DNA of 64,000 nucleotides. Source: Ornithinibacillus bavariensis. Its GTDB lineage: Bacteria > Bacillota > Bacilli > Bacillales > Amphibacillaceae. The translations under genes were made by a program, and so were the position numbers. Each line of letters opens with the position of its first letter. Within the stretch, counting starts at the first letter, position 1. Positions 6,743 through 13,813 of the stretch are shown piece after piece. The stretch is from positions 930,001 through 994,000 of the forward strand of contig NZ_BORP01000001.1 of the NCBI RefSeq assembly GCF_018333235.1, written 5' to 3'. Under the pieces are notes generated by a model. It saw nothing but the letters and a program-made list of their open reading frames with translations, did no database searches and had not been told where the DNA came from.

Positions 6743-6813
6743 TCAAGATAGATTAAAAGAACTTATAAAAACAGGGTATGTGAAGACAACAGTTTTTTAA
6801 AATGAGGTGTACT

Positions 6814-7281
6814 ATGTCGGAAATATGTATTAGATTAATAACTTCAGATAATTGGAGAGAAGCACTTGAACTATCCATACACGATGCACAACAAAGGTTT
6901 GTTGCATCTGTTAATCCTCCTGTTGCTATTGCTCTTGCTAAAGCATATATAAGACCAGGAGGAAAGATGGTAGAGCCTTATGGAATTTACAATCAAAATA
7001 AGATGGTAGGCTTTTTCAATCTGCATTATACACCAGATAGTAAAGATGATTATTGGCTGTTTCATTTTTTCATAGATAAAAGATTTCAAAGAAGAGGATT
7101 GGGCAGAAAAGCATTAAATGAATTAATTAGACATATTAAAAATAGCAATCCTTCTTGTAACCGTCTGAATTTAACGGTTCATCCTGAAAATGAAGCAGGA
7201 AGATTATTTTATTTGAAATATGGTTTTTCAGATGACAATAAAATGACCTTCGATGAACCCACTTTTTCCATATTGTTATAA
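6814..7281 (+). CDS. GNAT family N-acetyltransferase (polyamine acetyltransferase-like)
   Basis: A cytosolic acetyl-CoA-dependent acetyltransferase of about 155 residues. The acetyl-CoA loop is RFQRRGLGRKAL (motif A, Q/R-x-x-G-x-G/A), followed by NRLNLTVHPENEAGRLFYLKYGF, the usual motif B with its Tyr near the end. The N-terminal half (NWREALELSI...QQRFVASV) resembles BltD/PaiA-type spermine/spermidine acetyltransferases; this is an inference. The ATG at 6814 is chosen because GAGGTG lies just before it, whereas the in-frame ATG at 6802 has no site of its own. Confidence 0.78.
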   Translation: MSEICIRLITSDNWREALELSIHDAQQRFVASVNPPVAIALAKAYIRPGGKMVEPYGIYNQNKMVGFFNLHYTPDSKDDYWLFHFFIDKRFQRRGLGRKALNELIRHIKNSNPSCNRLNLTVHPENEAGRLFYLKYGFSDDNKMTFDEPTFSILL

Positions 7282-7420: not shown

Positions 7421-7645
7421 TACTTTTATTCTGAAGGAGCAAATGCACACTGGGTATTTCCTTCTCAAAATATTATAGAACCTGCAAAACAAAAGGGAAC
7501 AAATATCAATCAAAATTTAACTGGAGAAAGTGCAGGTAGGTATGCTGTAAGGTTAGCTGGTTATAGCTATGTAAATGATGAAACTACAGTATTTGAAAGG
7601 TTTGAAAAGTATAAAGGGGATAGTCGCTTTTACTTAATAAAATAA
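7421..7645 (+). pseudogene. C-terminal remnant of an unknown gene
   Basis: A continuous open frame of about 74 codons has no usable start and is cut at its left by stops. It begins FYSEGANAHWVFPSQN and ends FEKYKGDSRFYLIK followed by TAA. Composition is protein-like and it ends cleanly, so it looks like the surviving 3' end of a gene whose 5' part is lost. The family is not recognised. Confidence 0.45.
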
Positions 7646-7982
7646 ACGTAATTTTTGAGTATAATTGTGCAATTCGTCAGAACAGTATCTGACTAATAAC
7701 ACTAAAATGTTGCCTATATAAGTATTCCGTATCGCCAATTCAATTCATTTTCCAGGAATTATTGCACTTTCAATCGATGCTATACGTAGACTTGCAAAAT
7801 TTTTATATCTATTATATAGTTGACGTACTATTGTATTAAAGGGTGAACTTTTTGTTAATTGTAGAATTCTAATCTAAATCAACGTAATAGCTTAATTTTG
7901 TTAAACAAACCTCCTATATAGGGGTGTTATTTGTTATGAAAAAAAGCAAGATTAGAATTAGTTAGCTTCGTATAAACATTTG
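7646..7982 (+). other. Upstream region of the polyamine gene, with a possible mini-ORF
   Basis: This AT-rich stretch has a short frame at 7936-7965 coding MKKSKIRIS and a stop 17 nt before a strong terminator. AGGGGTG lies about 9 nt before its ATG. Such a mini-ORF plus terminator in front of a biosynthetic gene may be an attenuator, or just the end of an unseen transcript. No confident promoter is visible. Confidence 0.35.
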
Positions 7983-8011
7983 GCGCGACTAATTTTAGTC
8001 GCGCTTTTTTC
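7983..8011 (+). terminator. Strong terminator ahead of the bpsA-speD fusion
   Basis: GCGCGACTAA (7983-7992) pairs with TTAGTCGCGC (7995-8004), followed by six T residues. There is no complete gene upstream in this direction after the acetyltransferase 700 nt away, so it may act as an intrinsic attenuator in the leader of the downstream gene. Confidence 0.8.
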
Positions 8012-8072
8012 TATTCGTTGATCTAGACAATTTTAATTTTTTACTTATTAAAATTGAGAGGACGAATCTACA

Positions 8073-9578
8073 ATGCAAAAACAATTACAACAAATTACAG
8101 CTGATATGCAGCTTGAAGAAAATTACTACACATTAGAAAAAGCTCTACTTGATTTATATTTCCATAAAAATTGCACAACTAAATCTTTAGCTCATACGAC
8201 AGGCTTACCAATACCAATCGTTTCAGCAATGAAGAAAGAATTCGCAAAGCGAGGATGGGGCAAACATAGCTTAACGAAAAAGGGTCAGCTTGCTATCTCG
8301 CAATATTTTCAACTCTTAGGTGCTGATACTAAACTCTACCTTCAATTAACGACTGATGATGCATTTCGTACGGAATGGATTACACAAAATATAAGCGAAT
8401 TAAGCACGATTTATGACGCTAGACCTACAGCTGATGTAGCAATTGATCAATCAAAATGTACAGTTGAGACAGCCATAAAACGTGCATTGCTCGCACTAGA
8501 CTATACGATGCTACTCAATAAGGGAATTTTGTGTTTAGGCGATGATGATTTCATCAGTATTGCACTAGCGTTTTTACTAAAGAAAATCGCTCCTCATTCC
8601 ACAACTAAAATTGTTGTGTTAGATATTGATAGGCGAATTTTATATACGATTAACAAAATAGCTGAGGACTATGAGCTTCCGATTAAAACAGATTATTATA
8701 ACGTTCAGGAGCCTTTGCCTAAAAAATACGCCCATCAGTTTGATTGCGTATACACAGATACCCCGTATACCTTGATTGGCTCACAGCTTTTTTTATCTCG
8801 TGCAATTAACGCACTAAAGCCAGAAGCAATGCGGCATGTATTTTTTTCCTACGCTAAGCGAAGCTACCAAAAGCAGTCGCAAATACAGCAAAGCTTATGT
8901 GCTATGGGTTTTGTTATTGACAGTATTAAATACGATATAAACACCTATGAAGGTTCACAAATTTTAGGCGCCAAAAGTCAATTATTCGTATTACAAACAA
9001 CAGAGCAAATGATTCCCTATATTACTAATCAGCGTAAATTTACGCAACCAATTTACACAGGAGAAATTGAACGGAAATCTGTGGTTTATCAGTGTACCCA
9101 TTGTCAGCACTCAATTACTGTCGGCGTTGGACATCAATACACCACTATTGCTCAGCTTCAATCCAGTGGTTGCCCGAGTTGTAAAAATAATAAGTTTTCA
9201 CAAATTAAGAGAACAGTAGATAAGACACAATCCCAGCATACATTAGGACATCAAATTTTATTAGAGTTGCATGATTGCGATGTTGAATTACTCAATGACG
9301 TGCAACAAATTAAATCGATTATGTGTCAAGCTGCCCTTAAAGCAAAGGCAACGATTGTGACCGAACACTTCCATCATTTTTCACCTTACGGGGTTAGCGG
9401 TGTAGTCATTATTCAAGAATCACATTTAACGATTCATACGTGGCCAGAGTACGGTTATACGGCAATAGATGTTTTCACTTGTAACAGTAAATTAGCTCTA
9501 CAAGAGGCTGTTCAATTTATTACTGCGCAATTTAATGCAGGAATTGCCACACAGCATTACGTGCATCGGGGTAAATAG
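8073..9578 (+). CDS. Fusion of branched-chain polyamine synthase (BpsA-like) and S-adenosylmethionine decarboxylase (SpeD)
   Basis: A predicted two-enzyme polyamine protein of 501 residues. Residues 1-80 look like the winged-helix N-domain of BpsA. Residues about 125-310 form an aminopropyltransferase fold with the BpsA signatures [11 protein letters not shown] (GDDD at 156-159), the nucleotide-binding strand VVLDID (181-186) and TDTPYT (228-233, where known BpsA proteins have TDPPxT). A zinc-ribbon-like segment follows (C341/C344 and C367/C370). Residues 385-501 are a complete class 1 bacterial SpeD: self-cleavage to the pyruvoyl enzyme is expected between E449 and S450 in the motif [14 protein letters not shown], with H455 and C470 also conserved. 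SpeD decarboxylates AdoMet and BpsA transfers its aminopropyl group to spermidine, giving N4-branched polyamines. Fusion of donor synthesis and use in one chain is unusual. GAGAGGA precedes the ATG. Confidence 0.85.
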
Positions 9579-9615
9579 AAAAAATGGAGGGGCTGTCCTA
9601 TAAGCCCTTAAAATG

Positions 9616-9655
9616 AAACAGGAGAAGAAAAACAAGTTTTTTTCTTTTCCTGTTT
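9616..9655 (+). terminator. Terminator of the bpsA-speD fusion gene
   Basis: A long A/T-rich stem with one mismatch: AAACAGGAGAAGAAAAA pairs with a T-run followed by CTTTTCCTGTTT. Confidence 0.7.
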
Positions 9656-9810
9656 TCGATTAAAACTATAACAGTTCTATTTGGTGTCGTAACTTTAGAG
9701 TTGTGACATTGCTTATAATATATCTAATTTGGATGTGTAATGTGATGTGATACACTTAAACTAACGGGTTCTTTACTAAATTATTTAAAAAATAAAGAAA
9801 GGAGAATTAC

Positions 9811-10210: not shown

Positions 10211-11281
10211 TTATTTTCCTATATACATAGCATTTGGTCTAAAAATAGTATTATTACTCATTTGTTCGATTGCATGTGCACACCAACCAACTATTCTACT
10301 TGAGCTAAAAATCGCTGTAAATAACATTGGATTAATATTTAATGCTTTCATAATCGCTGCTGCATAATATTCTACATTGGTATATAGATTTTGGTTTGGT
10401 TTAACTTCTTTTAATATCTCTATTGTTTTTAGTTCCGTTTCAAATGCTAATTCAACCCATTCTGGTAATTGATCAAGTTGTGAAATTGTGTATTTTAATG
10501 CTTCAGCTCGTGGATCGATTGTTTTATATACTCTGTGACCAAATCCCATAATTCGCTCTTTGTTTCTTAATTTTTTGTGAATTATTTCACATATATTATC
10601 TTTTGTTTCAATTTCTTCCAATAGTTCAATCACTCCAGATGGTGCGCCGCCATGTAATGGGCCTTTCATGGTTCCAATTGCACTAGTAATTGCGGATACT
10701 AAATCACTTTCTGTTGAAATTGTCACCCTTGCTGCAAATGTAGATGCATTTAAACCGTGTTCCATTGTCAATATTAGGTAAGTTTCTAGTATTTTTGCGT
10801 GAATATGGTTTGTCTCTTCATTTAGCATATAAATTAAATTCTCCACATGATTTAATGATTTATCAGGTTTCAAAAATGGTAGATGGTTCATTCTACGATA
10901 CTGGTAGGATATAATTGTAGGAATGACTGCAATTAGCCTTAACGCAGATTCTTCTATTTCAACACCATGCTTTATGTGATGAGACGAAATGAGTGTTCTC
11001 AGTACATCCATGATTTCCATATCAATCGGTAGTTCAAGAAGGATTCTCTCCATATAATCTGGAAGAGAGCGATAATCCTTTAATTTTGATTCAAACTCCT
11101 CTTTTGTAATTGGGTCAGGAAATTCCTCGTATAAAAGAAAATATGCAACTTCCTCAAAAGAGTAACCTTCTACTAATTGTTGAATTTCCTTACCACGATA
11201 GCTTAATCGACCTTGGTCTCCATCAATGTTACTCAGCTTTGTTTGTACTGCTGTAACATTTTTTAATCCTGGTTGAAACAT
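10211..11281 (-). CDS. citA: Citrate synthase (minor, CitA type)
   Basis: It condenses oxaloacetate and acetyl-CoA to citrate, the entry step of the TCA cycle. The 356-residue length, the motif GPLHGGAP with its catalytic His, and GHRVYKTIDPRAEAL with the second conserved His are diagnostic of the bacterial type I citrate synthase/2-methylcitrate synthase group. The divergently transcribed LysR regulator 110 nt away matches the citA-citR arrangement of B. subtilis, where CitR represses citA; this is the main reason for calling it citA and not citZ. Methylcitrate synthase cannot be fully excluded. The ATG at 11281 is preferred over the in-frame GTG at 11290 because GGGAG lies 8 nt before it. 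Confidence 0.85.
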   Translation of the reverse strand: MFQPGLKNVTAVQTKLSNIDGDQGRLSYRGKEIQQLVEGYSFEEVAYFLLYEEFPDPITKEEFESKLKDYRSLPDYMERILLELPIDMEIMDVLRTLISSHHIKHGVEIEESALRLIAVIPTIISYQYRRMNHLPFLKPDKSLNHVENLIYMLNEETNHIHAKILETYLILTMEHGLNASTFAARVTISTESDLVSAITSAIGTMKGPLHGGAPSGVIELLEEIETKDNICEIIHKKLRNKERIMGFGHRVYKTIDPRAEALKYTISQLDQLPEWVELAFETELKTIEILKEVKPNQNLYTNVEYYAAAIMKALNINPMLFTAIFSSSRIVGWCAHAIEQMSNNTIFRPNAMYIGK

Positions 11282-11391
11282 TTTGACCACTCCCTCTTCC
11301 CTTTGCTTACATTATAATAAAGTAAAAACATTATTAAAATTTAATATTTTTTAATATAATAATAAATAATTCTTATTAATTGAGGTGCTAG
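11282..11391. promoter_or_regulatory. Divergent citA/citR promoter region
   Basis: This 110-nt AT-rich region separates the two starts and must hold both promoters and the LysR-type operator. A run of ATTATTAAAATTTAATA/TTTTTTAATATAATAATAA dyads is centred near 11345. The exact T-N11-A site cannot be assigned by eye. Confidence 0.55.
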
Positions 11392-12270
11392 ATGGATATT
11401 AAGAATCTAAAAACATTTATCCTTGCAGCAGAATATGAAAATTATCGTCAGGTGGCTGAAAAATTATATTTAACACAGCCAGCAATTACCTTTCAAATAA
11501 AGCAGTTAGAGAAAGAATTGGGTGGACAATTATTTCATAAAGATGGTAGAAATATTGTTTTAACGGAGTTTGGTAGAATGTTTTATCACGAGGCTTCAGA
11601 GATTATCTCGCAATTTGAAAAAAGTCTTCACAGAATGAATCAATTTAAACAAGGGTATCATAAGCTACTTCGAATTGCTATTTCACCATTACTTGCCGAT
11701 ACAATTTTACCTACTATTTTGCATAAATATATGGCCACACACCCGAATGTTGAATTTACTATTCAAGTGATGGAATCAAGGCTAATTTCACAGCAAATAG
11801 AAAATGGTGATGTTGATGTAGGGCTATCAAGCCTACCAGGGTCTAGTCTTATTAAAACAATTCAATTTCATGAGGAAAATGTTGTTTTAGTAATGCGTCA
11901 TGACGGGTACGATGCTGAATCTGGCCCTATTTTAGATGGCTTGGGAATATTAGAAGAACATATATTGTTTACCGATAACCATCCTTACTACTGGGGAAAG
12001 CTAAAAGAACAACTCCTTTTAAAGATTCCCTCCCTTCGAATGATGAAAGTCAATCAAACGTACGTTACAAAACGATTTGTACTGGAAGGTATGGGGGTTA
12101 GCTTTCTCCCTCTATCAAGTATTAATAAGGAGATAATTGAAGGTAGATTATTAGAAATACCTGTTCACTTTATTGAAACGCCTCGAGCTGGCATGTATTT
12201 TTTATATAAAAACAACCATCAATTTGATCCGGAGCTAATGAATTTTATCGCTTCCTTCCACTTTAGCTAG
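11392..12270 (+). CDS. citR: LysR-family transcriptional regulator (CitR-like)
   Basis: A cytosolic DNA-binding regulator of 292 residues. Residues 1-60 form the LysR winged helix-turn-helix (MDIKNLKTFILAAEYENYRQ, then AEKLYLTQPAITFQIKQLEK), and residues about 90-290 a periplasmic-binding-protein-like effector domain. The divergent citrate synthase gene suggests it is the CitR repressor, though other LysR roles are possible. GAGGTG lies 5 nt before the ATG. Confidence 0.75.
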   Translation: MDIKNLKTFILAAEYENYRQVAEKLYLTQPAITFQIKQLEKELGGQLFHKDGRNIVLTEFGRMFYHEASEIISQFEKSLHRMNQFKQGYHKLLRIAISPLLADTILPTILHKYMATHPNVEFTIQVMESRLISQQIENGDVDVGLSSLPGSSLIKTIQFHEENVVLVMRHDGYDAESGPILDGLGILEEHILFTDNHPYYWGKLKEQLLLKIPSLRMMKVNQTYVTKRFVLEGMGVSFLPLSSINKEIIEGRLLEIPVHFIETPRAGMYFLYKNNHQFDPELMNFIASFHFS

Positions 12271-12354
12271 TTATCTTGTACAATCAAGATAAATTTTCAC
12301 AATTATAGTAAACTAAAAATAACTAAAATGATAGATTTCAGATGAGGTGTGTTC

Positions 12355-13149
12355 ATGCAAAAATATTCTCGTTATATAGGTATAGTTTTAATGCTTTTCA
12401 TCATAGCTGGCTGTACTTCAAATAAACAATCTAACATCTCTCTAGCCAATGACACATCTATTGAATTAACTATTTCAGCGGCTGTTAGTCTTAAGGAGTC
12501 CTTAGAAATTATCCAGAAGAAGTATGAAGCAGACAACCCACACGTTAAATTAAAATTTAATTATGGAAGTTCAGGTTCCCTTCAACAGCAAATATCGCAA
12601 GGTGCTCCCGTTGATCTATTTTTCTCGGCAGCTAACGATAAGTTTCAAAAACTCATCACCGAAGGCATAATTACACCGGATGACGGTACTACTCTCTTAT
12701 TCAACGAACTTGTAGTAATCACGCCAAAAGAAAATGCATATCCGATTAAAAGCTTAACTGATTTAGTACATAAGGAAATTGATCATATTTCTATCGGTAC
12801 TCCAGAGACGGTTCCAGCTGGGAAATATGCTAAGGAAGCCCTTGAAAAAAGTGGCTTGTGGAACGATTTAGAGCCTAAACTAGTATTTGCTAAAGATGTC
12901 CGCCAAGTATTATCATATGTAGAGACAGCTAATGTGGAAGCAGGTATAGTCTATAAAACAGATGCACTTATTTCTGACAAAATTGCAATCATTGATACAA
13001 TTGATTCAACTACCCACATTCCTATTGAGTATCCTGTAGGAATTGTTAAGCATTCCCAAAACTATGAAGCTGCCAAACAATTTTTAAACTATTTACAAAG
13101 TATAGAAGCAATTGAGGTCTTTGAGGAATATGGATTTATTACACAGTAG
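12355..13149 (+). CDS. modA: Molybdate ABC transporter substrate-binding lipoprotein
   Basis: The extracellular lipoprotein that captures molybdate (or tungstate) for import. A lipobox IIAGC places the lipidated Cys at about residue 20. The mature part has ModA hallmarks: LTISAAVSLKESLEII, NYGSSGSLQQQISQGAPVD (oxyanion-binding Ser residues) and GTPETVPAGKYAKEAL. The length (264) is normal. GAGGTG precedes the ATG at 12355; an in-frame GTG at 12349 overlaps that site and is less likely. modB follows with overlapping reading frames, so the two are one operon. Confidence 0.92.
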   Translation: MQKYSRYIGIVLMLFIIAGCTSNKQSNISLANDTSIELTISAAVSLKESLEIIQKKYEADNPHVKLKFNYGSSGSLQQQISQGAPVDLFFSAANDKFQKLITEGIITPDDGTTLLFNELVVITPKENAYPIKSLTDLVHKEIDHISIGTPETVPAGKYAKEALEKSGLWNDLEPKLVFAKDVRQVLSYVETANVEAGIVYKTDALISDKIAIIDTIDSTTHIPIEYPVGIVKHSQNYEAAKQFLNYLQSIEAIEVFEEYGFITQ

Positions 13150-13813
13150 CTTGTTAACCGATGAATTTTGGAGTCCTATCTGGCAGTCACTAAAAATTTC
13201 AACTGTTTCTGGCATTATCGTTATAGTGTTAGGTACATTGATAGGGAAATATTTTAGTCGAAAACAAATTAAAGGAATGTCCATTTTAGAAACTATCATT
13301 ATGCTCCCTATTGTTCTCCCCCCTACTGTTGTCGGATTTTTACTTATTGTAGTCTTTGGTAGAAACAGTTTAATGGGTAGAATAATAGAATGGATTTTTA
13401 ATCAACCGGTAATCTTTACATGGTGGGCTGCAGTCATTGCTTCTGCAATAGTTGCGTTTCCATTGATGTATCAGTCTGCAAAAGCAGCATTCCAAAGCGT
13501 AAATAGTGATATTGAAGCTGCTGCAAGGCTGGATGGAGCAAATGAATGGAGAGTGTTTCTCTTTATATCTATTCCCCTTGCTTCCAGGGTACTAATATCG
13601 GGATGTATCTTAAGCTTTGCTCGTGCTTTAGGAGAATTCGGAGCAACGTTAATGTTTGCTGGCAATATCCCTGGTAAGACACAGACTGTTCCGACAGCAA
13701 TTTATATTGCAATGGATTCAGGTAATACAAATCTTGCTTGGGCTTGGGTAATATCAATTATGGTAATATCGTTCGTCATGCTATTATTTGTTCGTTCTAG
13801 GCAATTCCAATAG
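13130..13813 (+). CDS. modB: Molybdate ABC transporter permease
   Basis: The membrane subunit of the molybdate importer, 227 residues with about five TM segments. The cytoplasmic EAA loop that docks the ATPase is clear (EAAARLDGANEWRVFLFISIP), and ALGEFGATLMFAGN is a ModB signature. The ATG at 13130 overlaps modA by 20 nt and has GAGGT 11 nt upstream; a TTG at 13112 is an alternative. No modC ATPase gene follows, as in B. subtilis, so a shared ATPase must serve it. Part of its 3' end and its terminator are duplicated about 900 nt downstream. Confidence 0.9.
   Translation: MDLLHSSLLTDEFWSPIWQSLKISTVSGIIVIVLGTLIGKYFSRKQIKGMSILETIIMLPIVLPPTVVGFLLIVVFGRNSLMGRIIEWIFNQPVIFTWWAAVIASAIVAFPLMYQSAKAAFQSVNSDIEAAARLDGANEWRVFLFISIPLASRVLISGCILSFARALGEFGATLMFAGNIPGKTQTVPTAIYIAMDSGNTNLAWAWVISIMVISFVMLLFVRSRQFQ

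Follow-up and report, generated by a model that had tools for sequence, protein, structure and literature searches.

We found in the window (the whole stretch of 64,000 nt of Ornithinibacillus bavariensis DNA that was analysed) a gene that joins a domain of the branched-polyamine synthase family (BpsA) to a complete S-adenosylmethionine (AdoMet) decarboxylase (SpeD) in a single 501-residue chain, preceded by a conserved leader with the parts of a transcription attenuator. On balance, we think it probable that the gene encodes an inducible bifunctional enzyme that makes and uses decarboxylated AdoMet (dcAdoMet), that it is under the control of a ribosome-mediated attenuator as part of a ribosome-stress response, and that gene and leader have been transferred together. 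The leader, which was not mentioned in the preliminary description of this DNA, points to ribosome stalling as the control through its likeness to known attenuators. The features are listed in Table 1.

Table 1. Features of the bpsA-speD fusion gene and its leader, in window coordinates
Feature	Position	Strand	Details
Conserved 5′ leader	7790..8072	+	283 nt; 88–93% identical before the fusion in 12 other genomes; flanks beyond differ
Promoter-like TTGCAA-17-TATAGT	7792..7820	+	9/12 consensus matches; at the 5′ edge of the conserved unit
Shine-Dalgarno-like AAAGGGTGA of the uORF	7838..7846	+	Invariant in 13/13 leaders
uORF TTG TTA ATT GTA GAA TTC TAA	7852..7872	+	MLIVEF-stop; TTG start; from the sequence
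Segment A, overlapping the uORF end	7865..7875	+	Complementary to segment B over 11 bp without mismatch
Putative RNA polymerase pause hairpin	7909..7925	+	Folding; hairpin before TTNTTT in 13/13 fused-type leaders
TTATTT	7927..7932	+	Match to NusG pause motif TTNTTT, which is in 13/13 fused-type leaders
Segment B	7949..7962	+	Pairs with A (anti-antiterminator) or with 7988–8000 (antiterminator); folding with and without uORF block
Intrinsic terminator hairpin, then T run	7982..8005	+	10 pairs, 6 G-C
bpsA-speD fusion gene	8073..9578	+	ATG start, 501 aa; Pfam, NCBIfam, PDB, AlphaFold2, Foldseek
N-terminal winged-helix-like part	8073..8399	+	Residues 1–109; mostly helical in AlphaFold2 model; aligns to Tk-BpsA N-terminal part
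BpsA_C domain	8400..8966	+	Residues 110–298, GDDD 156–159, TDTPYT 228–233; Pfam, profile alignment
Zinc-ribbon-like linker	9093..9182	+	C341xxC344...C367xxC370; four Cys in all aligned rows
SpeD class 1b domain	9240..9572	+	Residues 390–500; Pfam, NCBIfam, PDB, Foldseek; S442, S450, H455, C470 present
SpeD processing site E449/S450	9417–9422	+	Aligned to 3iwb chain ends

Both halves of the protein were recognised above threshold. BpsA_C (PF01861) matched residues 110–298 (E 6e-42, 143.9 bits against a cut-off of 27), AdoMet_dc (PF02675) matched residues 395–500 far above its cut-off (E 6e-38), and TIGR03330, the NCBIfam equivalog of the Bacillus subtilis-type SpeD, matched residues 390–500 with 130 bits (cut-off 75.65). 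The preliminary description had read the chain as a BpsA-SpeD fusion from these signatures, and its BpsA assignment withstood a profile search that it could have failed. In the PDB search, Thermotoga maritima SpeD (1tlu) matched residues 390–482, Thermus BpsA (6j27) residues 116–294, and the BpsA of Thermococcus kodakarensis (Tk-BpsA, 5xnc) residues 67–292; a profile built from eight N-terminal parts aligned to Tk-BpsA over profile positions 1–300, including the N terminus. Structure prediction agreed with the profiles for both domains: an AlphaFold2 model based on 34 aligned rows (pLDDT 86.5, pTM 0.68) had as its top Foldseek matches BpsA structures (E 1e-19) and the related 2qm3, followed by SpeD structures, with T. 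maritima SpeD reaching a target TM of 0.91 over 112 columns. Ten other genomes (loci L034–L043) have the same 501-aa ORF, which excludes an assembly artefact.

The two processed chains of SpeD 3iwb matched fusion residues 390–449 and 451–483, which places the processing site at E449/S450, where the preliminary description had put it in a SpeD that is indeed complete. S442, E449, S450, H455, and C470 are all present; we take them to correspond to S55, E62, S63, H68, and C83 of T. maritima SpeD, presumably in their roles as well. The C-terminal SpeD would be expected to process itself at this site and to make dcAdoMet, and the N-terminal domain would transfer the aminopropyl group, with a polyamine as the most likely amine acceptor. 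Self-cleavage leaving the BpsA part on the SpeD beta chain had been called mechanistically odd. The two chains of a processed SpeD remain associated. Given this association and the Ca. Pelagibacter fusions of AdoMet decarboxylase (AdoMetDC) and aminopropyltransferase, described as functional in parts of PMC11107197, we see nothing odd in the arrangement. In those fusions, too, donor synthesis and use lie in one chain, but the AdoMetDC is N-terminal and the transferase is of the spermidine/spermine-synthase type (PMC11107197, in part); the term BpsA does not occur in the main text of that paper. The whole domain of the class 1b SpeD TM0655 of T. maritima is shared with the fusion, including the processing site and S442, S450, H455, and C470, and the fusion differs from it by the N-terminal BpsA. 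With both domains in a single chain, donor synthesis would be coupled to donor use, as the preliminary description proposed; judged from the sequence, it is very likely that the fusion both synthesises dcAdoMet and transfers the aminopropyl group, and with the predicted enzyme a single natural chain would lead from AdoMet to an aminopropylated product.

Between the domains, cysteines 341, 344, 367, and 370 are kept in all 89 rows of the bpsA alignment (87 distinct, the window included; L104 duplicates L007 and L110 duplicates L008). The earlier label of a zinc-ribbon-like linker is thus sound as regards the cysteines, while zinc binding is weakly suggested by profile matches below cut-off. The fusion has the fold, the N-terminal part, and the DQ, GDDD, and TD motifs in common with the BpsAs of T. 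kodakarensis and Thermus thermophilus (EC 2.5.1.128, N4-bis(aminopropyl)spermidine synthase), and differs from them by its fused SpeD and by a host that is not a known thermophile. GDDD, which positions dcAdoMet, lies at G156–D159 and is found in 89/89 rows, a count that reflects in part the selection of the 80 scanned loci by a GDDD or TD[PT]P motif. A further difference lies at the site where Tk-BpsA has TDPPET and Thermus BpsA has TDPVEG: TD[PT]PYT is present in every one of the 89 rows (DPPYT in 76; DTPYT in 13, among them the window), so that the DPPE/DPVE of the two characterised BpsAs is replaced by DxPY throughout. In addition, the BpsA part ends in the four-cysteine, zinc-ribbon-like region in place of the flexible acidic C-terminal cluster that carries the aminopropyl group in Tk-BpsA (PMC12979288, in part); no acidic cluster was seen by eye in residues 293–395, and other carriers are possible. 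Because of the DxPY motif and the replaced carrier region, BpsA activity cannot be assumed, though spermidine may still be the acceptor. A branched polyamine would be a likely product. The stronger statement of the preliminary description, that the enzyme branches spermidine, lacks support as worded, given DxPY and a host in which our searches found no SpeE, NspC, or over-cut-off agmatinase.

These searches covered a host genome that is 96.7% complete. They revealed no SpeD besides the fusion and no match to NspC, and the best agmatinase match had 142 bits (cut-off 174). The sole PF01564 match (23.6 bits), a short protein with 21 bits against a speE cut-off of 249.55, was rejected as a SpeE. 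Nine of ten genomes of the same genus have both SpeD and SpeE, which would be understandable if the fusion were a housekeeping replacement, that is, the host's spermidine (or other linear polyamine) synthase in place of lost speD and speE; the same could be said of the five of 12 fused-gene genomes that lack SpeE and any other SpeD. The searches gave no SpeE in the fused-gene type strain of Siminovitchia terrae, for example. The remaining seven, however, retain SpeE and a separate SpeD (in G163 the SpeD is a 46-bit match only), and hence the enzyme is neither a constant companion of the classical pathway nor a constant substitute for it. As the domain belongs to the BpsA and not the SpeE family, as the host is also without NspC and an over-cut-off agmatinase, and as an inducible-looking attenuator would be odd for such a gene, we regard a housekeeping role as unlikely. 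Either the host imports the acceptor or makes it by a route that escaped detection, or the acceptor is not a polyamine. In the reading that we prefer, an inducible enzyme of the ribosome-stress response, the acceptor polyamine would be taken up from outside, and in other hosts SpeE or NspC would supply it.

DPPY is motif IV of base amino-methyltransferases. The presence of DxPY in all rows, a below-cut-off Pfam match to N6-adenineMlase, a Foldseek hit on METTL5, an rRNA methyltransferase (target TM 0.72, one of many methyltransferase hits), the winged-helix-like and zinc-ribbon-like parts, the erm-like control described below, and the lack of a detectable spermidine route in the host together raise a different idea: on ribosome stalling, a DPPY-type BpsA relative with nucleic-acid-binding-like parts might aminopropylate an rRNA base or a bound antibiotic, as a new form of ribosome protection beside a MutS2-like splitting factor. 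If so, the use of dcAdoMet would extend beyond polyamine synthesis to the modification of macromolecules. We consider this a long shot: the best fold matches in Foldseek are BpsA structures, some with polyamine bound, and to our knowledge no dcAdoMet-dependent base modification has been described.

A scan of 84,980 species genomes gave 195 encoding places, the best 80 of which were analysed. Among these 80 were the ten intact 501-aa fusions and two interrupted ones, both in Lysinibacillus (L045 near the N terminus, L044 near the domain junction); the 12 window-type relatives come from Siminovitchia, Cytobacillus, Neobacillus, Bacillus, Sporosarcina, and Lysinibacillus. The two interruptions could reflect either decay or sequencing error. 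Three more distant fusions (L059, L071, and L084) were also among the best 80 of 195, and in the other 65 a separate speD lies directly downstream in ten and is not adjacent in the rest. In the host's family, a comparison of fused and split forms over 159 genomes found the fusion in the host only (none in the other 158) and a split BpsA-like gene in seven others, including Pseudogracilibacillus auburnensis (L104) and Lentibacillus populi (L110); in three of the seven, speD is directly downstream. Separate enzymes had been described as known from thermophiles; they exist but are not confined there, since BpsA homologues are common in Paenibacillus, Brevibacillus, Tissierella, and other Bacillota among the best 80 of 195 places. 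A distant BpsA-SpeD fusion also lies amid bacterial-looking genes on a human-gut contig filed as 'Bacteriophage sp.' (L033, MT839461.1), which may be bacterial DNA under a wrong label.

The fused state requires two changes on a tree of 84 BpsA parts, and the window falls there in a compact clade of 12 (11 fused plus L044) with 100/100 support and a long stem. Mean dN/dS over the window and the ten intact copies is 0.17; the fusion gene is under purifying selection, and positive or relaxed selection, suspected at one point from similar amino acid and nucleotide identities, was ruled out by this value. Pairwise dS among the copies is 0.08–0.66. Nucleotide homology among them begins at window positions 7732–7792 and ends at 9583–9656, i.e., it reaches 280–342 nt upstream of the start codon and 5–78 nt past the stop codon of the window's gene. 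The only neighbour family common to the window and its 12 relatives was a 24% LysR match, some of the flanks being short. From the unrelated neighbourhoods, the bounded homology, and the dS range, we infer repeated transfer of the gene with its leader, which would move between genomes as a unit and spread in this way among Bacillaceae-type genomes. No conserved operon was found around the fusion; only L034 and L037 have flanks in common. Upstream on the same strand, the window has a GNAT acetyltransferase gene (6802–7281) with weak RimI and PaiA matches, which at 21 bits to PaiA was rejected as a polyamine acetyltransferase. Downstream, at 10211–13813, a citrate-synthase-family gene is divergent from a LysR-like regulator, followed by ModA/ModB-like genes (the last three recognised by eye).

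The conserved unit begins with the 5′ leader, whose mean column identity over 13 sequences is 89%. Promoter-like matches are no more frequent in the leader than in shuffled sequences. The uORF has six codons and the same end point in ten of 13 leaders (MLIVEF, MSIVAF, or MLNVEF), and three relatives (L039, L040, and L042) have the shorter MLL-stop. A hairpin followed by TTNTTT is present in 13/13 fused-type leaders with 13 different stem-loop sequences, where hairpins occur in about 11% of shuffled sequence. The leader has the parts of uORF/NusG-type attenuators: a uORF with a Shine-Dalgarno sequence, an overlapping anti-antiterminator, and a terminator. A riboswitch was considered and rejected, as no Rfam family reached its gathering score on the leader and the layout of uORF, pause site, and terminator fits attenuation better. 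Across window positions 7600–9800, Rfam gave 12 permissive matches, none at the gathering score, and 11 related loci gave three gathering matches, none at a bpsA leader. Covariation in fused-type leaders, whose sequences are too similar for it, was limited to two compensated pairs of 75; in a set of bpsA- and MutS2-type leaders (set A3), three of 14 pairs were compensated. A second leader-like match, at G164:C32:87432, was rejected as a functional leader and is a relic: at about 1033–1095 of L168 (G164:C32:86400–91000), a decayed, partial fused-type leader that has lost the uORF start precedes a gene that by eye is GNAT-like. The relic lies in the Lysinibacillus genome that contains L039; an intact copy is present elsewhere in it.

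In the mechanism we propose, segment A pairs with B by default and the terminator forms; a ribosome stalled on the uORF would cover A, leaving B to pair with the arm of the terminator and the gene to be transcribed. Equilibrium folding with ViennaRNA gave the window's terminator a probability of 0.98 when the RNA was free and 0.00 with a ribosome footprint over the uORF stop, compared with 0.96 with a control block elsewhere. The switch was predicted in eight of the 11 scorable fused-type leaders (13 in total). The equilibrium calculation gave none in L034 (0.92), L035 (0.99), and L041 (0.88), and L040 and L042 were unscored, the script having found no terminator. Control-block means over the scored fused-type leaders were 0.73–1.0; in three of the switching leaders (L036, L038, and L043), the terminator probability also fell, to 0.08–0.40, with some control blocks. 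Stalling-dependent attenuation is likely for the fused type, and the switch is predicted for this type only: it appeared in none of 34 leaders with a formed terminator in set A3 (39 bpsA- and MutS2-type leaders, 35 scored) and in none of the 11 scored among 13 MutS2 leaders of fused-gene genomes. Such leaders may rely on kinetics or on some other mechanism, and their parallel with the window leader is one of layout. The hairpin-TTNTTT element is likewise weaker outside the fused type, being present in 21/33 leaders of set A3 and in 2/13 MutS2 leaders of fused-gene genomes.

Similarly built leaders precede split bpsA genes and a second kind of gene. By regular expression, a seven-codon uORF lies directly before the bpsA-like gene in 46 of 89 upstream regions (44 of 87 distinct), encoding M-x-x-x-V-[LFV]-N-stop in 46/46, with Ser second in 39; segment A consists of the four codons at its end (GTTCTTAACTAA and variants), and ten A-B base pairs are almost unchanged over 39 aligned leaders. 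At nine more loci, a mutS2-like gene directly precedes bpsA, and the uORF precedes mutS2 in 9/9. Including the 13 fused-type leaders, uORF leaders total 68/89 (66/87 distinct); the expression found none in 21/89 upstream regions, of which L098 and L112 show a variant. The pattern ATG-N9-GTTCTTAACTAA was present in 162 of 296 genomes around a Paenibacillus, some of the matches being the B side of the same element, and a reversed control pattern gave 12 listed matches in the same 296 genomes. Among 30 loci listed for the pattern, 24 lie before a MutS2-like gene, four before bpsA, one before an RT-like ORF, and one before nothing recognisable. The order leader, mutS2-like gene, bpsA was seen in two of three Paenibacillales stretches, and the mutS2-like gene alone in the third.

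The MutS2-like protein (649–660 aa) scored 587–601 bits to TIGR01069 (cut-off 400) and is a short paralogue, matching only positions 1–511 or 1–523 of the 790-position model. The host has such a gene (a 637-codon frame) besides a full-length MutS2, with an upstream uORF (GTG...TAG, MSVVGSK-stop). The short paralogue is present in 12 of 13 fused-gene genomes (absent in G162), and 12 of 13 MutS2-type upstream regions of these genomes gave a match to a uORF. In B. subtilis, MutS2 splits ribosomes that have stalled, and deletion mutants are hypersensitive to chloramphenicol, tetracycline, and erythromycin (PMC10897456, in part). Split bpsA genes and a short MutS2-like gene, which at some loci form one operon, have leaders of like construction, and this suggests that the enzyme is part of the cell's reaction to ribosome stalling; a role in ribosome stress would best explain both these leaders and the MutS2-like operon. 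The stimulus could be, for example, a translation-blocking antibiotic, and ribosomes could gain stability or protection from a highly charged polyamine; published excerpts report that in Thermus ribosome stability needs long and branched polyamines.

One further reading is that the gene serves thermophile-like branched-polyamine synthesis and that its leader senses a polyamine or related metabolite, as SpeFL or the AMD1 uORF do. Membership in the BpsA family by sequence and fold is in keeping with this, as is a uORF that ends at the regulatory segment, in the manner of the stop-codon-stalling sensors SpeFL and TnaC (PMC10314930, in part). It is, however, hard to reconcile with a similarly built leader before a gene outside polyamine metabolism, the MutS2-like one, and with a modelled stall that turns the gene on, as would suit shortage or stress and not product feedback; furthermore, the relatives are mostly not thermophiles by name. 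We therefore hold metabolite sensing to be distinctly improbable.

The closest known parallels of the leader are in antibiotic-resistance and ribosome-rescue genes. As described in parts of PMC9226507, the vmlR leader of B. subtilis comprises a uORF, an RNA switch with an anti-antiterminator, a pause hairpin with TTNTTT, and a terminator, all as in the window leader; uORF, RNA switch, and terminator also recur in excerpted descriptions of the tlrB (yxjB) leader of B. subtilis and the msrD leader, the latter with a peptide, MYLIFM, on which ribosomes stall at the stop codon. The likeness is one of layout: the window-type leader precedes a polyamine-type enzyme and, in similar form, a MutS2-like gene, and its uORF peptides are MLIVEF and MxxxVLN. 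Likewise, the uORFC-6-1 motif of Bacillales places a uORF leader before a ribosome-rescue gene, but that gene is hflX and the peptide has an Arg-Leu-Arg motif (PMC8632094, in part). Among open-licence titles and starts of abstracts, a scope that makes absence weak evidence, no BpsA-SpeD fusion, bpsA attenuator, or MutS2 uORF was found, and the word 'fusion' occurs nowhere in the main text of a branched-polyamine review. Branched polyamines are usually treated as a heat adaptation; a mobile-looking fusion in Bacillus-like genomes, with a leader resembling those of inducible resistance genes and with relatives linked to a MutS2-like ribosome factor, would tie polyamine branching to translation stress and would be a candidate for unrecognised intrinsic tolerance in environmental Bacillota, with antibiotic-inducible transcription as its prediction.

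Some other features were observed around the related loci. In L062, L087, L088, and others, a second long terminator-like hairpin (GGGCAGAAGATGGAC..GTTCATTTTCTGCCC and variants) follows the first upstream of bpsA. In Paenibacillus fonticola (L082:8971–11293), a MutS2-like gene without the seven-codon uORF lies directly before speD, roughly 1.8 kb downstream of a bpsA gene with the uORF leader. Near other bpsA loci there are a c-di-GMP-II riboswitch (L060:5428–5511) and cobalamin riboswitches (L062:8711–8912 and L054:9443–9622).
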